This document shows, piece by piece, positions 3,943 through 13,471 of a stretch of 22,516 nt of DNA. Source of the stretch: a virus; IMG/VR virus record IMGVR_UViG_3300032797_000111, positions 1-22,516 of that record; one strand, given 5' to 3'. Under the pieces are notes generated by a model. That model searched no databases, was not told where the DNA came from, and saw nothing but the letters and a program-made list of their open reading frames with translations. Within the stretch, counting starts at the first letter, position 1. Each line of letters begins with the position of its first letter. The translations under genes and the position numbers were made by a program.

Positions 3943-4204
3943 ACGCTGTGTTGCTTGCGGTAAGGAGCATGGAAGAGCTTATCAGCGACAATATTATTCT
4001 GTCCACAAGCAAGAATATTTGGAGGCCCAAAGACAGAAACGAAGAACGGAAAGGAATGAAAAACATAAAAAGAATAAAAAAGTCTTGGTTGTTAAACCCA
4101 TACTCAAACAGCCAATTCTTCTTCAAAATTTACCCGTAGGCGGAAAGTTTGAGGAGGCAATAGAAAAGCTAATAGATTATCACTGGATGAAAAGGCAGGT
4201 TTAA
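3878..4204 (+). CDS. Zinc-finger protein with basic helix, 108 aa
   Basis: Cys11, Cys14, Cys24 and Cys27 form CIDC-x9-CVAC, close to the zinc finger often found before HNH or DNA-binding parts in phage proteins. An HGRAYQRQYY segment follows, then a very basic helix (residues about 52-70, rich in RRTERNEKHKKNKK). This is consistent with nucleic-acid binding, but no HNH catalytic residues are visible. The start at ATG 3878 keeps the first Cys pair; a later ATG at 3935 would lose it. The SD for 3878 is poor, so the start is uncertain. Confidence 0.6.
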   Translation: MHLLKKPKKRCIDCRAKISMGKRCVACGKEHGRAYQRQYYSVHKQEYLEAQRQKRRTERNEKHKKNKKVLVVKPILKQPILLQNLPVGGKFEEAIEKLIDYHWMKRQV

Positions 4205-4378
4205 ATGAAATGCCCAAAATGCGGGGGACAAACTCACATAGAAAATACTTACCATCTTAAAGACAAAACCGAAATCCGAAGGCTTCATAAATGCCTGAAT
4301 CCAAATTGCCTGAATGAAAAAGGTAAACGTTTCACTTTCCATACATTCGAAAATTATGAGAAAAAAGACCCTATTTAA
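4205..4378 (+). CDS. Zinc-ribbon protein, NrdR/Ogr-like, 57 aa
   Basis: The ATG at 4205 directly follows the previous stop, and the frame ends at TAA 4376-4378. CPKC at the N-terminus and CLNPNC near residues 30-35 form a four-Cys zinc ribbon, with IRRLHKC before the second pair and KRFTFHTFE after it. This order matches the zinc-ribbon head of NrdR and the fold of Ogr/Delta-type phage activators. NrdR's ATP-cone domain is absent, so this is not NrdR itself. It may be a small transcription factor, which is inference. It is the last gene before the structured gap at 4379-4563. Confidence 0.6.
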   Translation: MKCPKCGGQTHIENTYHLKDKTEIRRLHKCLNPNCLNEKGKRFTFHTFENYEKKDPI

Positions 4379-4427
4379 AGATTTTAGCTATTAGCAGCTT
4401 TACTTTCTTCAAAGTTGAAGATTTTTC

Positions 4428-4433
4428 TTGACA
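4428..4433 (+). promoter_or_regulatory. Possible -35 element
   Basis: TTGACA is a perfect -35 hexamer in the gap before the methyltransferase gene. The bases at the right distance (4451-4458, GTTTTAGT) make a poor -10, so the promoter is uncertain and could depend on an activator. Confidence 0.25.
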
Positions 4434-4463
4434 AAGGAATAAAATAATACGTTTTAGTCTCTT

Positions 4464-4495
4464 GGAGCGGGGAAGCCCCGAAATTTTCTTGCTCC
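4464..4495 (+). promoter_or_regulatory. Two-tier hairpin in leader
   Basis: CGGGG (4468-4472) pairs with CCCCG (4476-4480) around a three-base loop, and GGAGC (4464-4468) can pair with GCTCC (4491-4495) outside it; the shared base at 4468 means the two stems compete at one position. AAATTTT follows the inner stem, so weak termination of the upstream operon is possible. Confidence 0.35.
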
Positions 4496-6183: not shown

Positions 6184-7447
6184 CCCAAGCCGGCATCCGG
6201 CTTTTGTTGCGGCTTGGGGAACAGGCAAAAGTCTGTGCGGAATCTTGAGGGGGATGCTTTACTCCGAGGGCATACCTCAAAATCTGGGAATCATTTTCCG
6301 AAAGGAATATACGGACCTTAGGGATTCGACCTTGAAGGACTTTGAGCGGTATACCGGGATGAAATGCGACAGCCAAAGGAACGTCAACTTTCCCAATGGT
6401 TCTCAGATTATGTTCCGGCACGTTGAGGAGCTTAACAACCTTCAAAACATAAATCTTGGCTGGTTCTTTATCGAGCAAGCTGAAGAATTGGCAAGCGACA
6501 AGGAATTCTTCTTGCTTTGGGGCAGACTAAGAAGAGATTTGATTCCTTCTCCGTCTTTTTCAAGTTTAGGTTTGCCTGTTCATTCGGGTTTTATTAGTGG
6601 GAATGTGAAAGCAAGCAACTGGATCAAAAAGTTTTGGAAGGATAAACCGGAGGAGGGATTTGATTTAATCGAGGCTACGACTTTTGATAATGCTGATGTC
6701 CTGCCGGAAGATTATCTTGCCAGCTTAGAGAAATTGAAGAAACTACGTCCGGAGATTTATGCCCGCTATGTGATGAACGATTGGGAGACTGAAACTGAGG
6801 GAAAGGCATTTAAGAGTGACTTAATTGATGCCTGTATCGGAGGCGAATTTGAGGATCCACAAACTGGGATGAATTATGTCTTAGGCACGGATTTGGGGAA
6901 ATATAGCTCTTATACCACAATCTTTGTTATTAAGTTGGATGTGAAGCCAAGTCCAGTGGTTTATTTCGACAGGTTTAAGAATCTGCGCTGGTCCTCAAAG
7001 GATTTGAGGATTGATACCACAGAAAAGCGGATCAAGGATGTTGCCATAAAGTATAACAATGCGCTTGTGATTCCCGACAGCACGGGTGTGGGCGATCCGG
7101 TGGTCGAGGGCTTGGAAGATTTGGGATTGAGGCTCTATGGGGATGATAAAAAACTTGGATTCGTATTTACCGAAAAGTCAAAGGAACAACTGATTGATAA
7201 TCTCATTTTGGTAATAGAAAATGGGGAGATAAGGATTCCCGATATCGAGGTCGTCATAAATGAACTGAAAGACCTTGAGGTAGAGGATAGGGGCTTGAGT
7301 AGAAAATACTTTGCACCCGAAGGCAAGTTTACTGATTGTGTAATGGGGTTGGCTTTATGCTGTTGGGGGATGCCAAAGCCAGAGCCTTTTTACTTGCAAA
7401 ACGTGGGGCAGAAAAGGGAATCGGTTAGAGCGATGAGGGATTTTTAA
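6077..7447 (+). CDS. terL: Terminase large subunit
   Basis: The packaging motor has an ATPase half and a nuclease half. Walker A is WGTGKS (residues 47-52), Walker B is WFFIEQAEE (129-137), and a coupling-type motif FISGN lies at 172-176. The nuclease half shows three acidic blocks: GTDLGKYS with Asp272, IPDSTGVGD with Asp334 and FTDCVMG with Asp420, as in RNase H-fold terminases. The length of 456 residues is normal. ATG 6077 follows GAGG at 6070-6073 and lies within the small-subunit gene; the homologous part begins only at about residue 27, but no later start codon fits. It pumps DNA into proheads through the portal and cuts the concatemer. Confidence 0.92.
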   Translation: MIDQVETTKSSSSAQTETRARLKIQLKSFQDAFVFSPSRHPAFVAAWGTGKSLCGILRGMLYSEGIPQNLGIIFRKEYTDLRDSTLKDFERYTGMKCDSQRNVNFPNGSQIMFRHVEELNNLQNINLGWFFIEQAEELASDKEFFLLWGRLRRDLIPSPSFSSLGLPVHSGFISGNVKASNWIKKFWKDKPEEGFDLIEATTFDNADVLPEDYLASLEKLKKLRPEIYARYVMNDWETETEGKAFKSDLIDACIGGEFEDPQTGMNYVLGTDLGKYSSYTTIFVIKLDVKPSPVVYFDRFKNLRWSSKDLRIDTTEKRIKDVAIKYNNALVIPDSTGVGDPVVEGLEDLGLRLYGDDKKLGFVFTEKSKEQLIDNLILVIENGEIRIPDIEVVINELKDLEVEDRGLSRKYFAPEGKFTDCVMGLALCCWGMPKPEPFYLQNVGQKRESVRAMRDF

Positions 7448-9493: not shown

Positions 9494-9682
9494 ATGAGAA
9501 TTTGCGACATTAAAAATTGTAACCAAGAAGCGAAAAGAAGAGTTGAGCAGAAAGTTATTGAATTAAATATCGATGAAATTATGGAGCCTACATATTGGCG
9601 TTTATTTCGAGGTGATTTATGTGAGGAACATCTTAAGAGACTTGACGAAATTATGGAAAGATTCTTTGCACAAAATAGTTGA
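9494..9682 (+). CDS. Small zinc-finger-like protein, 62 aa
   Basis: The ATG at 9494 follows AAAGGAGAAGGGG. CDIKNC at residues 4-9 and CEEH at 43-46 give a possible C2CH metal site on the two ends of a short helical protein. I recognise the CxxxxC...CxxH layout as common in small phage and actinobacterial proteins, with no known function. It is the first gene of a small-gene island between the portal and the head protease. The last 17 bases overlap the next gene. Confidence 0.55.
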   Translation: MRICDIKNCNQEAKRRVEQKVIELNIDEIMEPTYWRLFRGDLCEEHLKRLDEIMERFFAQNS

Positions 9683-9833
9683 CAAAGAGAAGCTGGAAGA
9701 TTATATTAGAACCCTGAGAGCTGAAAAGTTTACGGGCAAGGTTACCATAAACTTTTTCAAAGGCGGGGTGACGAATATGAATGTTGGGAGCGAACCGGTG
9801 ATATGGGAAGAAAAAACCATAAAAGTAGGGTGA
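9666..9833 (+). CDS. Small phage protein, 55 aa, TTG start
   Basis: The coding part that looks conserved is KLEDYIRTLRAEKFTGKV, then INFFKGGVTNM, a helix followed by a beta hairpin. I recall similar short phage proteins with 'F.G...INF..GG' but no function. The best start is TTG 9666, with GGAAAG at 9655-9660 as SD; the longer frame from ATG 9573 would read through the neighbouring gene in another frame and is unlikely. It overlaps both neighbours slightly and ends at TGA 9831-9833. Confidence 0.5.
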   Translation: MHKIVDKEKLEDYIRTLRAEKFTGKVTINFFKGGVTNMNVGSEPVIWEEKTIKVG

Positions 9834-9838
9834 ACAAA

Positions 9839-10294
9839 ATGAAAGAAAAAGCAGAGGACAAAATAATAAAATGCCGAAAAGGAAGAAGGGGCGAAGCAAT
9901 CAGAAGTTTTAATGACTTGAAGAAACCAATCAGGCTTTTAACATTGGGAGATTTTCCCGAAAGACCACTTACAGAAAATATGTTTAAGGAAATCGTTTCT
10001 AATTTCAAACGGAAGAGATTATCTATCCCTGTTTTTTATTCATTTGATTATAGTTTAGTTGGAGAAGTAGGAAAAATTTGGAAAGAAAAAAATTCACTAT
10101 GGATAAAATTGAAGAACGTAAGCGGTGAAGCAAAAAAGCTTTTTCAATCTGAACCTAAATCTTTTAGTTTAAGTTCTTCGGCTCTTGTCGATCCCGATTG
10201 TGATGACAAGGGGACAACAGGCTTATTAAGAGTTACACTTTTGCGAAAACTAATTGGAATCCCTATCGAAAAAGAACTTGAAGGCAAGAGATAA
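9839..10294 (+). CDS. Diverged paralogue of the head protease, probably inactive, 151 aa
   Basis: Residues about 29-145 align with the protease part (about 75-190) of the gene at 11511. GDFP aligns with GDYP, EIVSNFK with EIVANFN, KIWKEKNSLWIKLKNV with RIWREGDSLWAKLKNL, and IGIP with AGIP. The presumed catalytic His115 (in DHAE) of the larger protein corresponds to Tyr67 here (YSFD), while a Ser is kept near 110 (SFSLSS). Without the His it is unlikely to cut. It lacks the ChaB and scaffold parts. ATG 9839 follows AGGGTG; ATG 9803 is an alternative. It could be a regulator, a decoy subunit or a decaying duplicate. Confidence 0.65.
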   Translation: MKEKAEDKIIKCRKGRRGEAIRSFNDLKKPIRLLTLGDFPERPLTENMFKEIVSNFKRKRLSIPVFYSFDYSLVGEVGKIWKEKNSLWIKLKNVSGEAKKLFQSEPKSFSLSSSALVDPDCDDKGTTGLLRVTLLRKLIGIPIEKELEGKR

Positions 10295-10307
10295 GTGTGG
10301 GGTTGAA

Positions 10308-10541
10308 ATGAATGAACCAACAAAAGTAATATTGAAACATATAAACGATCAAGGTCAAATTGTCGAAGATGTATTTAATTGTTTATTGGATGCTCTGAAT
10401 AAAATTATGGATGACAGTATTCCGAAAGAACGATTTTTGGAGGTTAGAGTAAGATTTGTTTTGATTACGGAAAACTTGGACGTTTTACTTACGGCTGAGG
10501 ACATCCAATATCTTCGGAATAAATGGGTGGTGTTGAAATGA
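10308..10541 (+). CDS. Unrecognised acidic protein, 77 aa
   Basis: ATG 10308 follows a GTGGGG site; the upstream ATG at 10254 would overlap the pseudo-protease gene and has no SD. The protein is acidic and mixed alpha/beta, with a beta-like N-terminus (KVILKHIND) and two helical segments. No Cys cluster, signal or membrane segment is visible. The stop overlaps the next ATG (ATGA at 10538), so it is probably translated together with the zinc-finger gene that follows. Confidence 0.5.
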   Translation: MNEPTKVILKHINDQGQIVEDVFNCLLDALNKIMDDSIPKERFLEVRVRFVLITENLDVLLTAEDIQYLRNKWVVLK

Positions 10542-10798
10542 AGGACAAAAACAAAAAAGAAAAAAGGGATTATACATTCAGATTGTTTGCTATATGTAAG
10601 GTTTGCGGGTGGAAGTTTACATTGGATGCGGAAAGGAGCAAAATTAAATTGGGAATGAATATATTGATTAGCAGAGACCTTTTTCAGCACCTATTACATT
10701 ACCATCCATATACACTTTTTGACGTTGAAAAATATTTTTCTTTGAGTTCTAAGACTCTGAGAGAGTTGAAACAACTTAAAGAAGAAACGAAAGATTGA
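10538..10798 (+). CDS. C2H2-like zinc-finger protein, 86 aa
   Basis: Cys21 and Cys24 (CKVCGWKF) are followed about 25 residues later by HLLHYH, giving a possible C2H2 metal site, with a basic N-terminus (KDKNKKEKRD). ATG 10538 overlaps the previous stop and follows GGGTGGTG; ATG 10523 is an alternative. A DNA- or RNA-binding role is inferred from the finger. It is one of several small Cys proteins in this genome. Confidence 0.55.
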   Translation: MKDKNKKEKRDYTFRLFAICKVCGWKFTLDAERSKIKLGMNILISRDLFQHLLHYHPYTLFDVEKYFSLSSKTLRELKQLKEETKD

Positions 10799-10799
10799 A

Positions 10800-11111
10800 A
10801 TGAGATTAGACAAAGATACCTTAAGGAAACTTAAATATCTCAGGCAAAAATGGGGATTTGTAACTATTGGAAGAAAGGTAATAACCGAACCAATATTTGC
10901 CACTCAAATATGTGCCCCTATTGGAATTCGTGAAGTGGCGGTAACATACTTTTGTCGCAATTTTGATGAAGATGAAAATGGAAATATTACCCGTAATGGT
11001 GAACCTTATTTTGGTGAGCAAATAGCCTTAGAGTGGGATAACCCCGAAGGATTGGTTGATTATCTTTATTGGGATGAAAAAGAACTTGAAAAGGAAGAAA
11101 TGAAAGGATGA
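10800..11111 (+). CDS. Unrecognised protein, 103 aa
   Basis: The ATG at 10800 follows the previous stop with one base between. The protein has a basic N-terminal helix, a central hydrophobic stretch (ATQICAPIGIREVAVTYFC) with two Cys, and a very acidic C-terminus (WDEKELEKEEMKG). No domain is recognised. The stop overlaps the next ATG as ATGATGA, in keeping with coupled translation through the island. Confidence 0.5.
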   Translation: MRLDKDTLRKLKYLRQKWGFVTIGRKVITEPIFATQICAPIGIREVAVTYFCRNFDEDENGNITRNGEPYFGEQIALEWDNPEGLVDYLYWDEKELEKEEMKG

Positions 11112-11287
11112 TGAAAAGGGTATTTTTAAACTTACTGTGGAATCTTAGATTCTTTCTCTTCCGAATGTGGGTTAGAAATAAAGAGATTTCCCTGATAGAT
11201 TTTAAAACGGGAAAGAATTGGGCTGAAATAAAAGATGTGAAAAAAGATAAGGACAATATAACTTTGGAGATAGAAGTTAAAAGTTAA
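11108..11287 (+). CDS. Small protein with amphipathic N-terminal helix, 59 aa
   Basis: Two ATG codons in a row (11108 and 11111) follow GAAAGGA; the second has the better spacing. Residues 4-22 form an aromatic, hydrophobic but Arg-containing helix (FLNLLWNLRFFLFRMW) that could lie on a membrane. It is followed by a polar beta-like tail. The family is not recognised. It is the last gene before the structured RNA, which begins seven bases after the stop. Confidence 0.45.
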   Translation: MMKRVFLNLLWNLRFFLFRMWVRNKEISLIDFKTGKNWAEIKDVKKDKDNITLEIEVKS

Positions 11288-11294
11288 GGAAATC

Positions 11295-11375
11295 TAAATG
11301 CAAGTATCATTCAGTATGAAAGGATTCTCGGGTATGTCCGAGAAAGGATAGTTTGAATCTATCTACTTGCATTTA
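11295..11375 (+). ncRNA. tRNA-shaped four-way RNA structure
   Basis: A perfect 12-bp stem (11295-11306 with 11364-11375) closes three arms. Arm one is TCAT (11307-11310) with ATGA (11316-11319), or alternatively TTCA with TGAA one step over. Arm two is TTCTCGG (11325-11331) with CCGAGAA (11338-11344), loop GTATGT. Arm three is GATAG (11347-11351) with CTATC (11359-11363), loop TTTGAAT. Arm three abuts the closing stem with no gap, as the T arm does in tRNA, and its 5-bp stem and 7-base loop differ from the T-loop consensus mainly by T for C56. The six-base middle loop, lack of a GG D loop and lack of CCA argue against a working tRNA. It may be a leader switch or a phage small RNA. Confidence 0.55.
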
Positions 11376-11417
11376 ATGAGGGCAAAAAATGTAACAATTA
11401 GAATAATTTAAATACAA

Positions 11418-11425
11418 CTCGGACA
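11418..11425 (+). promoter_or_regulatory. Octamer complementary to arm two of the RNA fold
   Basis: CTCGGACA is perfectly complementary to TGTCCGAG at 11335-11342, the loop edge and 3' strand of arm two. A second, shorter copy (CTCGGA) follows at 11426-11431. It could form an alternative pairing that opens arm two. Confidence 0.35.
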
Positions 11426-11440
11426 CTCGGAACAAACCGA

Positions 11441-11488
11441 AGCCGACCAAAATTGCAGAGATGCAAGTGGTCGGCTTTTTTGTTTTTA
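11441..11488 (+). terminator. Intrinsic terminator before the protease gene
   Basis: AGCCGACCA (11441-11449) pairs with TGGTCGGCT (11468-11476). Inside, TTGCA (11453-11457) pairs with TGCAA (11462-11466) around the tetraloop GAGA. A T-rich tract (TTTTTTGTTTTT) follows. ATGCAAGT at 11461-11468 in its 3' strand is identical to 11298-11305 and therefore complementary to 11365-11372 of the upstream closing stem. Confidence 0.9.
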
Positions 11489-11510
11489 AACTTAAAACGA
11501 GGTTTTAAAA

Positions 11511-13076
11511 GTGCCATACGAAAAGTCAAATTTGCCAGATAGAATCAAGGGCTTGCCCGACCATGCCCAAGCGATCTGGATTGCTGCTTTCAATAATGCC
11601 ATTGAGGAATACAAGGGCGACGAGGGAAAAGCCAATGCTACCGCTTGGTCGGCGGTTAAAAAAGCTGGCTACGAGCAGGATGCGAAGGGCGAATGGCATA
11701 AGAAATTCGGCGAGGGGGGAATGGATTTTAACCAACCTATCGAGATTTTCAGGGTAGGCGATTATCCGCAGGGGAAATATACTACCAAAGACTTAGATGA
11801 GATTGTTGCTAATTTCAATCCTGAAGTTCACGAGCCGCCCTTAGTTATAGACCATGCAGAGACGGGTCCCGCCTACGGATGGATCGAAAGGATTTGGCGT
11901 GAAGGGGATTCTCTCTGGGCAAAGCTTAAAAATCTAACCAAAGACATCAAAGAAAAAATCAAAGAGGGGGAATATAAAAAGATTTCAATAATGCTCTGGG
12001 AGAATTTTGACAATACAGCCAAAAAAGTTTTAAAGCATGTGAGCCTTTTGGGGGCGGGCATTCCTCAAGTTAAGGGACTGAAGACATTTTCAGACGTGCA
12101 TGGACTTTATCGGTGCATCACTTTTGAGGATGATGTCAATTCTGAATTCGCTGCAACGGAAGAAGATAAAAAAGTCCAGAAAATAAGATCAACTAAATAT
12201 GGTATCACCATTCGGGAGGATGGTAATGTGACCAAGCCTTCCGAATGGGCAAACGTCCCCGATGAACAGTGGGCGGACCCGGTCAATTATGCTTATCCTT
12301 GCCCGAATTACGACCAGACCGTTGCTGCCTTGCGTTATTGGGGCAAATCCGAAAACCAATCTAAATATTCAATGGAGGACAAAACAACTATAACCAAGAG
12401 GCTTCTTTCCTTTGCCAAGAAATACAAGGTCGAGTCACAGACCAAGCAAAGCGAAATGAAAGAAGCCCAAACAACAATTGAGGAGTTTATTGAAACTAAT
12501 GGAGGTCAAGAGATGACACAAGAGGAAATTCAAAAACTAATTGATTCGACTGTCGAGGCTAAGACCAAAGAATTTACGGAGAAAGTTAATGTCTTGACGG
12601 ATGAAAACAAAAAACTCAAAGAAGATGCAGACCTAACGACCAAGAAAATGTCCGAGCGGGAATTGAATACCCAGCGTGTGGAGATTAAGGCATTTTGCGA
12701 AAATCTCAAAAGCAAAGGGCAGATTATTCCGGCTTGGCTTGATATGGGAATGCTGAAATTTATGGAGAGCCTCGATTCGCAGAACGTTTCCAAATTCAGT
12801 GAGGCGGATAGTTCAAAAGAGATTTCTCCCTATGCTTGGTTTAGGTTATTCCTCGAATCTCTGCCCAAGGTGGTGGAGTTTAAGGAATTGGCAAAAGATA
12901 AGGATGGGAACTTACAAGTGGAAAGCAAATTCTTTGTGGTGGCGGATACCAACGCTCATCTGCCCATCAAAAACGATGAACTGGCTGAGAAGGCAGTTCA
13001 ATTTATGGAATCTAACAAGGACAAAAAGCTAACCTTCAAAGAGGCCTTGATTGAGGTTAGCAGGAGGGACAAGTAA
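11511..13076 (+). CDS. ChaB domain, Mu I-type head protease and scaffold fusion, 521 aa
   Basis: Four parts can be seen. Residues 1-65 are a ChaB-like domain (LPDHAQAIWIAAFNNA, ending GEWHKK). Residues 73-190 are the Mu I-type prohead protease, with candidate catalytic His115 (IDHAE) and Ser159 (KKISIML). Residues about 245-307 resemble the DUF6582-type domain found inside some phage proteases (AYPCPNY, AALRYW). Residues about 335-385 are a coiled coil, followed by a scaffold-like tail to 521. The protease matures the prohead and removes the scaffold. GTG 11511 follows ACGAGG at 11497-11502. An internal SD and ATG at 12513 probably give a separate scaffold. The gene is the first after the terminator at 11441. 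Confidence 0.85.
   Translation: MPYEKSNLPDRIKGLPDHAQAIWIAAFNNAIEEYKGDEGKANATAWSAVKKAGYEQDAKGEWHKKFGEGGMDFNQPIEIFRVGDYPQGKYTTKDLDEIVANFNPEVHEPPLVIDHAETGPAYGWIERIWREGDSLWAKLKNLTKDIKEKIKEGEYKKISIMLWENFDNTAKKVLKHVSLLGAGIPQVKGLKTFSDVHGLYRCITFEDDVNSEFAATEEDKKVQKIRSTKYGITIREDGNVTKPSEWANVPDEQWADPVNYAYPCPNYDQTVAALRYWGKSENQSKYSMEDKTTITKRLLSFAKKYKVESQTKQSEMKEAQTTIEEFIETNGGQEMTQEEIQKLIDSTVEAKTKEFTEKVNVLTDENKKLKEDADLTTKKMSERELNTQRVEIKAFCENLKSKGQIIPAWLDMGMLKFMESLDSQNVSKFSEADSSKEISPYAWFRLFLESLPKVVEFKELAKDKDGNLQVESKFFVVADTNAHLPIKNDELAEKAVQFMESNKDKKLTFKEALIEVSRRDK
12513..13076 (+). CDS. Nested scaffold protein from internal start, 187 aa
   Basis: ATG 12513 (codon 335 of the protease gene) follows GGAGGT at 12501-12506 by six bases, a better site than that of the parent gene. 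The product would be the coiled coil and C-terminal tail only. Lambda uses the same plan for its protease C and scaffold Nu3, where the scaffold is made in excess from an internal start. Internal initiation here is inference from the SD and the domain boundary. Confidence 0.6.
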   Translation: MTQEEIQKLIDSTVEAKTKEFTEKVNVLTDENKKLKEDADLTTKKMSERELNTQRVEIKAFCENLKSKGQIIPAWLDMGMLKFMESLDSQNVSKFSEADSSKEISPYAWFRLFLESLPKVVEFKELAKDKDGNLQVESKFFVVADTNAHLPIKNDELAEKAVQFMESNKDKKLTFKEALIEVSRRDK

Positions 13077-13471
13077 TGCCAACATTTACAAAAGCAATAT
13101 GTTTGCCAATACTCGAAATGACTTTCACTGCCGAGGCGGCAATGGCTACAAATTACATTGCGGTTAAGCTGGGGACATACGATGGACAGGTCAATATCGC
13201 CGGCAGCGCAGAGGCAGCTATCGGTATTTTGCAGACTCCGGCTGCTACGGCTGGAGATCAGGTTCGAGTGATGATACTTGGGATTTCTCCGGTCAAGGCA
13301 AATGGAGATTTTTCTAAAGGTGATTTGCTTGGTTCGGCGGCTTCTACCGGATTGGTGGACACCGCTACGGCAGCTCACCACGGAATTGCAATCGCTTTAG
13401 AGGCGGCAGGCGCACAGAACGATATAGTTTCGGCGTTCGTATGCCCGCAGAAATACATAGCCGCCACATAA
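13076..13471 (+). CDS. Capsid decoration protein, DUF2190-like, 131 aa
   Basis: The stop of the scaffold and this start share TAATG. The protein is small, Ala- and Gly-rich and beta-type, with turns such as LGTYDGQV and KANGDFSKGDLL, and its plain pattern of alternating strands recalls DUF2190 decoration proteins. Its place between scaffold and major capsid gene is where cement proteins usually sit (as lambda D). It would bind the outside of the expanded head and stabilise it. The family call is from pattern and position, not a search. Confidence 0.65.
   Translation: MPTFTKAICLPILEMTFTAEAAMATNYIAVKLGTYDGQVNIAGSAEAAIGILQTPAATAGDQVRVMILGISPVKANGDFSKGDLLGSAASTGLVDTATAAHHGIAIALEAAGAQNDIVSAFVCPQKYIAAT

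Follow-up and report, generated by a model that had tools for sequence, protein, structure and literature searches.

A likely terminator/antiterminator RNA switch, conserved in several phages, at the end of a moron-like island directly upstream of a capsid operon

Introduction

Phage genes, late or early, may lie behind terminators and need read-through, as at lambda pR'-tR' and at HK022 put, and lambda Q acts through DNA at the promoter. In Mu, the terminator of the lys transcript is located upstream of protease gene I, and the P_I promoter lies downstream of this terminator. The put element of HK022 is an RNA of ~70 nt with two stem-loops, which acts on polymerase and does not share bases with the terminator (PMC9378689). 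RAT antiterminators are built from a stem broken by two asymmetric internal loops, which are recognised by the CAT dimer (PMC3369936).

Here we describe an RNA element at 11404-11481 of a 22,516-nt stretch of DNA from an uncultured virus of bacteria (linear IMG/VR record IMGVR_UViG_3300032797_000111, positions 1 to 22,516; this whole stretch is called the window in the following). Judging from alignment and predicted folds, it is probably a conserved terminator/antiterminator RNA switch that ends a moron-like island and is situated directly upstream of the capsid operon. With the protein-stabilised LicT RAT antiterminators it has in common a short hairpin with an asymmetric internal loop, which overlaps the 5' arm of the terminator and is too weak alone (PMC3369936, PMC7430163), and in five out of five elements the antiterminator is, as predicted geometry, exclusive with the intrinsic terminator, which is the arrangement of the RAT/BglG-LicT systems. 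However, its sequence is unrelated, its site is between phage structural genes, no CAT/PRD protein was seen in the phage fragments, and it cannot be assigned to the RATs because each element has one 4x2 loop and not two. T-box antiterminators likewise consist of two helices and an internal loop and compete with a terminator, but the T-box sequence, stem I and the specifier loop are absent here, the Rfam T-box model gave no match (also in a permissive local scan), and the neighboring tRNA-shaped fold is specific to the window. Unlike put, the element has the terminator itself as its second helix and shares a strand with it, which sets it apart from put-type RNAs, and in contrast to both Q and put, the latter of which acts on polymerase at distance, its local hairpin has bases in common with the terminator. 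Compared with lambda pR'-tR', we observed a conserved TAAATA-like box and no -35, and Q was not identifiable within the fragment. On the sequence level, the island corresponds to the description of a moron (promoter-like boxes at its start, variable cargo, a terminator at its end, a position between structural genes), yet it differs from the morons of temperate phages in the conserved competing hairpin on the terminator and in the conserved small gene that opens it. As in Mu, the terminator is found at the boundary to the protease gene, whereas here there is hardly room for a downstream promoter.

Results

The window shows a Mu-like gene order with methyltransferase, terminase, a portal/minor head fusion, variable small genes, protease, scaffold and major capsid. 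The head maturation protease, which has an N-terminal ChaB domain (11511-13076, + strand), was assigned by PHROG and Pfam matches, as were the scaffold and then the major capsid genes 3' of it, and its start codon is positioned 29 nt past the T run of the terminator. A terminase scan yielded L006, L007 and L008 as relatives at 51-54% identity, from which L006 and L007 additionally have portal, protease, scaffold and capsid in common with the window; single-protein scans with the protease and with the capsid did not find relatives. The more distant relatives L002, L003, L059 and L060 have no such gap upstream of the protease, and the portal matches, which were proteobacterial Mu-like phages lacking the gap before the protease, were set aside. 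Desulfobacterota as the host group were rejected, as motif and small-gene searches led only to chance or chromosomal matches.

In L006 and L007, as in the window, the gap closes with one and the same sequence and, after it, a terminator. This conserved element, located just downstream of a three-arm fold in the window, combines three parts: the conserved sequence AAATCTAAATAG-NNN-TATCGGACA, a small hairpin in which compensatory changes are seen, and an intrinsic terminator. The leader sequence reads TAATTTAAATACAAC (11404-11418, + strand; consensus AAATCTAAATAGnnnTA), and the five-element alignment A8 (n=5) follows the pattern AAATCTAAATAG-NNN-TA-UCGG-ACAN, inner hairpin, AG-CCGAU, terminator. 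The five elements derive from four phages, namely the window, L006 and L007, which have common head genes, and one further phage with a different head module and two copies, L081 upstream of the tail-tube gene and L088 upstream of the prohead protease. The L081 element was located by a DNA pattern scan, and the L088 island was located independently via the small island gene. A weight matrix found the conserved sequence essentially only at the gap in each genome, and a covariance model trained without the window recovered 11403-11481 at E 1.3e-7 as its sole match in the window, results that have to be read with n=5 elements and a motif definition drawn from these same five. The five-element model returned the known copies and no further complete copy from 0.8 Mb of related loci, and the element is absent from Rfam.

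What may be another copy of the conserved sequence, AAATCTAAATGCAAGTATC (11290-11308, + strand), overlaps the three-arm stem on its 5' strand; by inspection only, its AAATCTAAAT is common to L007, L081 and L088, and the spacing of its AGTATC equals that in the L007 element. Because of duplications in L081 we also considered cassette recombination via the repeated AAATCTAAATAG, which was rejected since it leaves the covarying RNA unexplained. There, the small island gene has its 3' end in duplicate (6186-6290 and 6704-6814; 89%) ahead of the second cargo gene, TTTAAATCTAA lying at the junction, and a similar copy occurs in L008 after its TTTAAATAG.

The terminator (11440-11481, + strand; folding energy -22.1 kcal/mol), for which compensatory changes were found, comprises a lower stem (11440-11449/11468-11477), an upper stem (11454-11458/11463-11467) and the T run at 11476-11481. 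In all five elements, the UCGG that precedes the small hairpin has its complement, CCGA, in the 5' arm of the terminator. The resulting antiterminator hairpin (11419-11446, + strand) is the same unconstrained minimum free energy (MFE) fold of its segment in five out of five elements, always with the 4x2 internal loop between 4-5 bp and 3-5 bp. In the window, the outer helix pairs 11419-11422 with 11443-11446 (UCGG/CCGA), the internal loop is ACAC/AG, and the inner helix pairs 11427-11430 with 11437-11440. Since the 3' strand of the antiterminator is part of the terminator 5' arm (shared 11443-11446), the antiterminator excludes the terminator.

The inner hairpins differ in sequence while retaining their pairing, with UCGG/CCGA in the window, UCUG/CAGA in L006, UGG/CCA in L007, UCCG/CGGA in L081 and UCGUA/UACGA in L088, and their combined chance probability was about 1e-6 by spacer shuffling with spacer limits of our own choice. 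Across the five elements, changes on both sides were found for three of four inner-helix pairs and three of eight terminator-stem pairs. For the inner hairpin and the terminator stem together, 98% of the cells are paired and six pairs show changes on both sides, which was reached by 3 out of 500 shuffles, and the covariation score was 0.50 compared to 0.21 in shuffles and <0.1 with partners slid by one column. TCGG and CCGA are invariant, and the adjacent terminator pairs vary with compensation. Because of this invariance covariation lends the outer helix no support, its backing being the invariance together with the geometry, and the invariance could have another cause. The outer helix has just 4-5 bp, and in L006 the 5' antiterminator strand has a rival local pairing. 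Folding energies ranged from -6.5 to -9.5 kcal/mol for the antiterminators versus -20.4 to -36.9 kcal/mol for the terminators of the five elements. When the window RNA is folded step by step, the antiterminator is present at 11447-11470 and gives way to the terminator at 11476, and in equilibrium folding the antiterminator has a probability of about zero once the terminator is complete.

We consider it unlikely that a plain, unregulated operon-boundary terminator ends the cargo transcript, with a head operon that has its own promoter and an incidental match of UCGG to CCGA, as might arise because UCGG repeats part of the terminator 3' arm. Terminators are expected at operon boundaries and in morons, a strong one is present in five out of five elements, and the lack of covariation in the outer helix also fits this explanation, which nevertheless leaves the covarying hairpin at a fixed place, the constant 4x2 loop and the invariant UCGGA unexplained. 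It is further disfavored by the distance from the T run to the structural start codon, which with only 25-47 nt in the window, L006, L081 and L088 leaves little room for a new promoter, and by the result that no sigma-70-like + strand site was found at 10645-13084 of the window.

Every element closes an accessory-gene island, at the opening of which the same small gene is found. In the window, this gene (9666-9830, + strand) marks the 5' island boundary and encodes a protein of ~55 aa with the pattern ...DK..(E)..DYIR.L..EKFTGKVTINFFKGGVTNMN..EP...; its homologues in L006, L007, L008, L081 and L088 are 40-50% identical, and it comes first in six out of six islands, which are the five with an element and L008, whose contig stops just past the leader sequence and which we counted as the sixth. 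The small island protein had no match in Pfam and no clear match in PHROG, and its structure prediction gave a mean pLDDT of 49.5. Short ORFs bearing its FTG..KVNFSQGG motif, without the RNA element, were seen in Desulfobacterota genomes (L093-L096).

A sigma-70-like promoter, TTGACA-17-TATATT (9679-9707, + strand; 11 of 12 consensus matches), overlaps the start of the small gene. TTGACA is exact in all six islands, a TANATT-like box follows 17-18 nt downstream in five of them, and this site at the island start is the only full sigma-70-like + strand site in the window, and likewise in L089. The codon before GAC always ends with TT, which hints at a constraint acting on the DNA, with shared descent contributing. 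The variable cargo of the window consists of ORFs of 163, 95, 91, 103 and 58 aa (9803-11287, + strand; ORF list), none of which had a PHROG match or a significant Pfam match. The 163-aa ORF (9803-10294), lying between the portal and the true protease, resembles part of a head protease, with a weak match (26%) to the L007 protease. Between terminator and protease, L007 carries an endonuclease VII-like gene (12678-13247) and a further ORF.

Less probable again is an arrangement in the style of lambda pR'-tR', in which AAATCTAAATAG with its -10-like TAAATA box would serve as a late promoter for a phage sigma or an activator, transcription would start near UAUCGG, and the short RNA would end at the terminator unless the polymerase is modified in a Q-like or put-like manner. 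The sequence is also found without a terminator, immediately ahead of a cargo ORF in L007 (12323-12346) and close to the L008 contig end, its spacing to UCGG is consistent, and one phage carries the element before the protease as well as before the tail-tube gene; on the other hand, TAAATA/TGAATA is a poor sigma-70 -10 box, there is no -35 in common, and the motif is present just 1-2 times per genome fragment.

The three-arm fold upstream of the element (11295-11375, + strand; MFE fold with an 11-12 bp closing stem) had been proposed in a first-pass annotation to control the terminator through two alternative pairings. The perfect 12-nt inverted repeat described there (11295-11306/11364-11375) and the arms are present, and MFE folding yields the three-arm shape with the twelfth closing-stem pair mostly open (P 0.31). 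The z-scores against dinucleotide shuffles were -5.35 for the 221-nt region 11280-11500, about -4.7 for the three arms alone and -7.7 for the terminator alone. The terminator was likewise correctly recognised (stem 11440-11449/11468-11477, then T6), and the two octamers are indeed exact complements (11335-11342 with 11418-11425; 11365-11372 with 11461-11468). These matches are weaker evidence than the fold: when the downstream part is shuffled, at least one arises by chance in 9% of cases and two in 2.4%, and the sequence at 11418-11425 is fixed by the conserved element, to which it belongs and which is present in phages without the three-arm RNA. If 11335-11342 is forced to pair with 11418-11425, the structure lies only about 3 kcal/mol above the MFE, and the antiterminator strand would be buried; at best, this pairing may be a modulation specific to the window. 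The octamer 11461-11468 belongs to the top of the terminator, which is not conserved, and its forced pairing costs about 21 kcal/mol. By blastn and covariance model, no homologues of the three-arm RNA were found in related loci, confining it to the window phage.

The layout of mutually exclusive folds before the head genes is well supported by the conserved terminator/antiterminator overlap, and the proposed partners are not, since the other phages keep the element without the three-arm RNA and comparison lends that version no support. Given that the antiterminator of the conserved element excludes the terminator, a switch such as the one claimed is probably present, with partners that differ from those proposed, and control of the terminator by the three-arm RNA through the two octamer pairings is very improbable despite their exact complementarity and the low cost of the first.

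The first-pass annotation had recognised no riboswitch or T-box, in line with our Rfam search of the region, which gave nothing at gathering score and, in a permissive scan, weak, sub-threshold matches to unrelated families only; the match to STnc430 (E 0.33, far under its gathering score) was rejected as mere terminator resemblance. With the related loci included, the only Rfam match at gathering score was one tRNA in L022, and blastn with the whole region returned nothing informative. ARAGORN found no tRNA in the region, and the three arms were ruled out as a tRNA or Y-RNA, as no model, including the tRNA covariance model, matched. A leader-peptide attenuator was rejected because the 17-codon ORF at 11298-11351 (MQVSFSMKGFSGMSEKG) has no counterpart seen elsewhere; this ORF has AAGGA upstream and begins inside the three-arm closing stem. 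The three-arm RNA forms a structured insert of its own in the cargo slot, specific to this phage. In L006, a different strongly folded non-coding stretch (4210-4416) occupies this slot directly before the element, with z -3.6 to -3.8 for two parts of it and z -7.1 for 4200-4470 including the terminator.

Discussion

What the analysis shows directly is a conserved element and its island context, covariation in both the inner hairpin and the terminator stem, and a geometric overlap between the two folds. A terminator with a competing hairpin recurs at comparable places in three other phages, and this recurrence suggests that shell production is under the control of an on/off gate. By default, the terminator (about -22 kcal/mol) would prevail, and transcripts from within the island, probably from the promoter at 9679-9707, would halt before the structural genes. 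The shorter antiterminator at 11419-11446 would form first during transcription, and we infer that an exchange of folds in its favor would need a factor that holds it, presumably via the invariant outer helix and the 4x2 loop. With the terminator blocked in this way, the polymerase would proceed into the protease, scaffold and capsid genes, and the gate would open for late expression. The small island protein is a candidate for this factor on its co-occurrence with the element alone. Taken further, and only as a tentative proposal that we hold to be possible, the element may represent a new class of phage RNA switch, in which a phage factor, for which the small island protein is one possibility, binds a two-helix antiterminator with an invariant 4x2 loop, so that accessory genes are expressed in lysogeny and structural operons stay shut until late infection.

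The usual answer to how accessory genes can be kept between structural genes without transcribing the latter is 'a terminator'. This answer raises the question of how late transcription passes that terminator. At exactly such a boundary, a conserved hairpin competes with the terminator, and in one genome it does so twice, at two different structural boundaries. The question of read-through is thereby made directly testable, and a covariance model is available for finding more of these elements.
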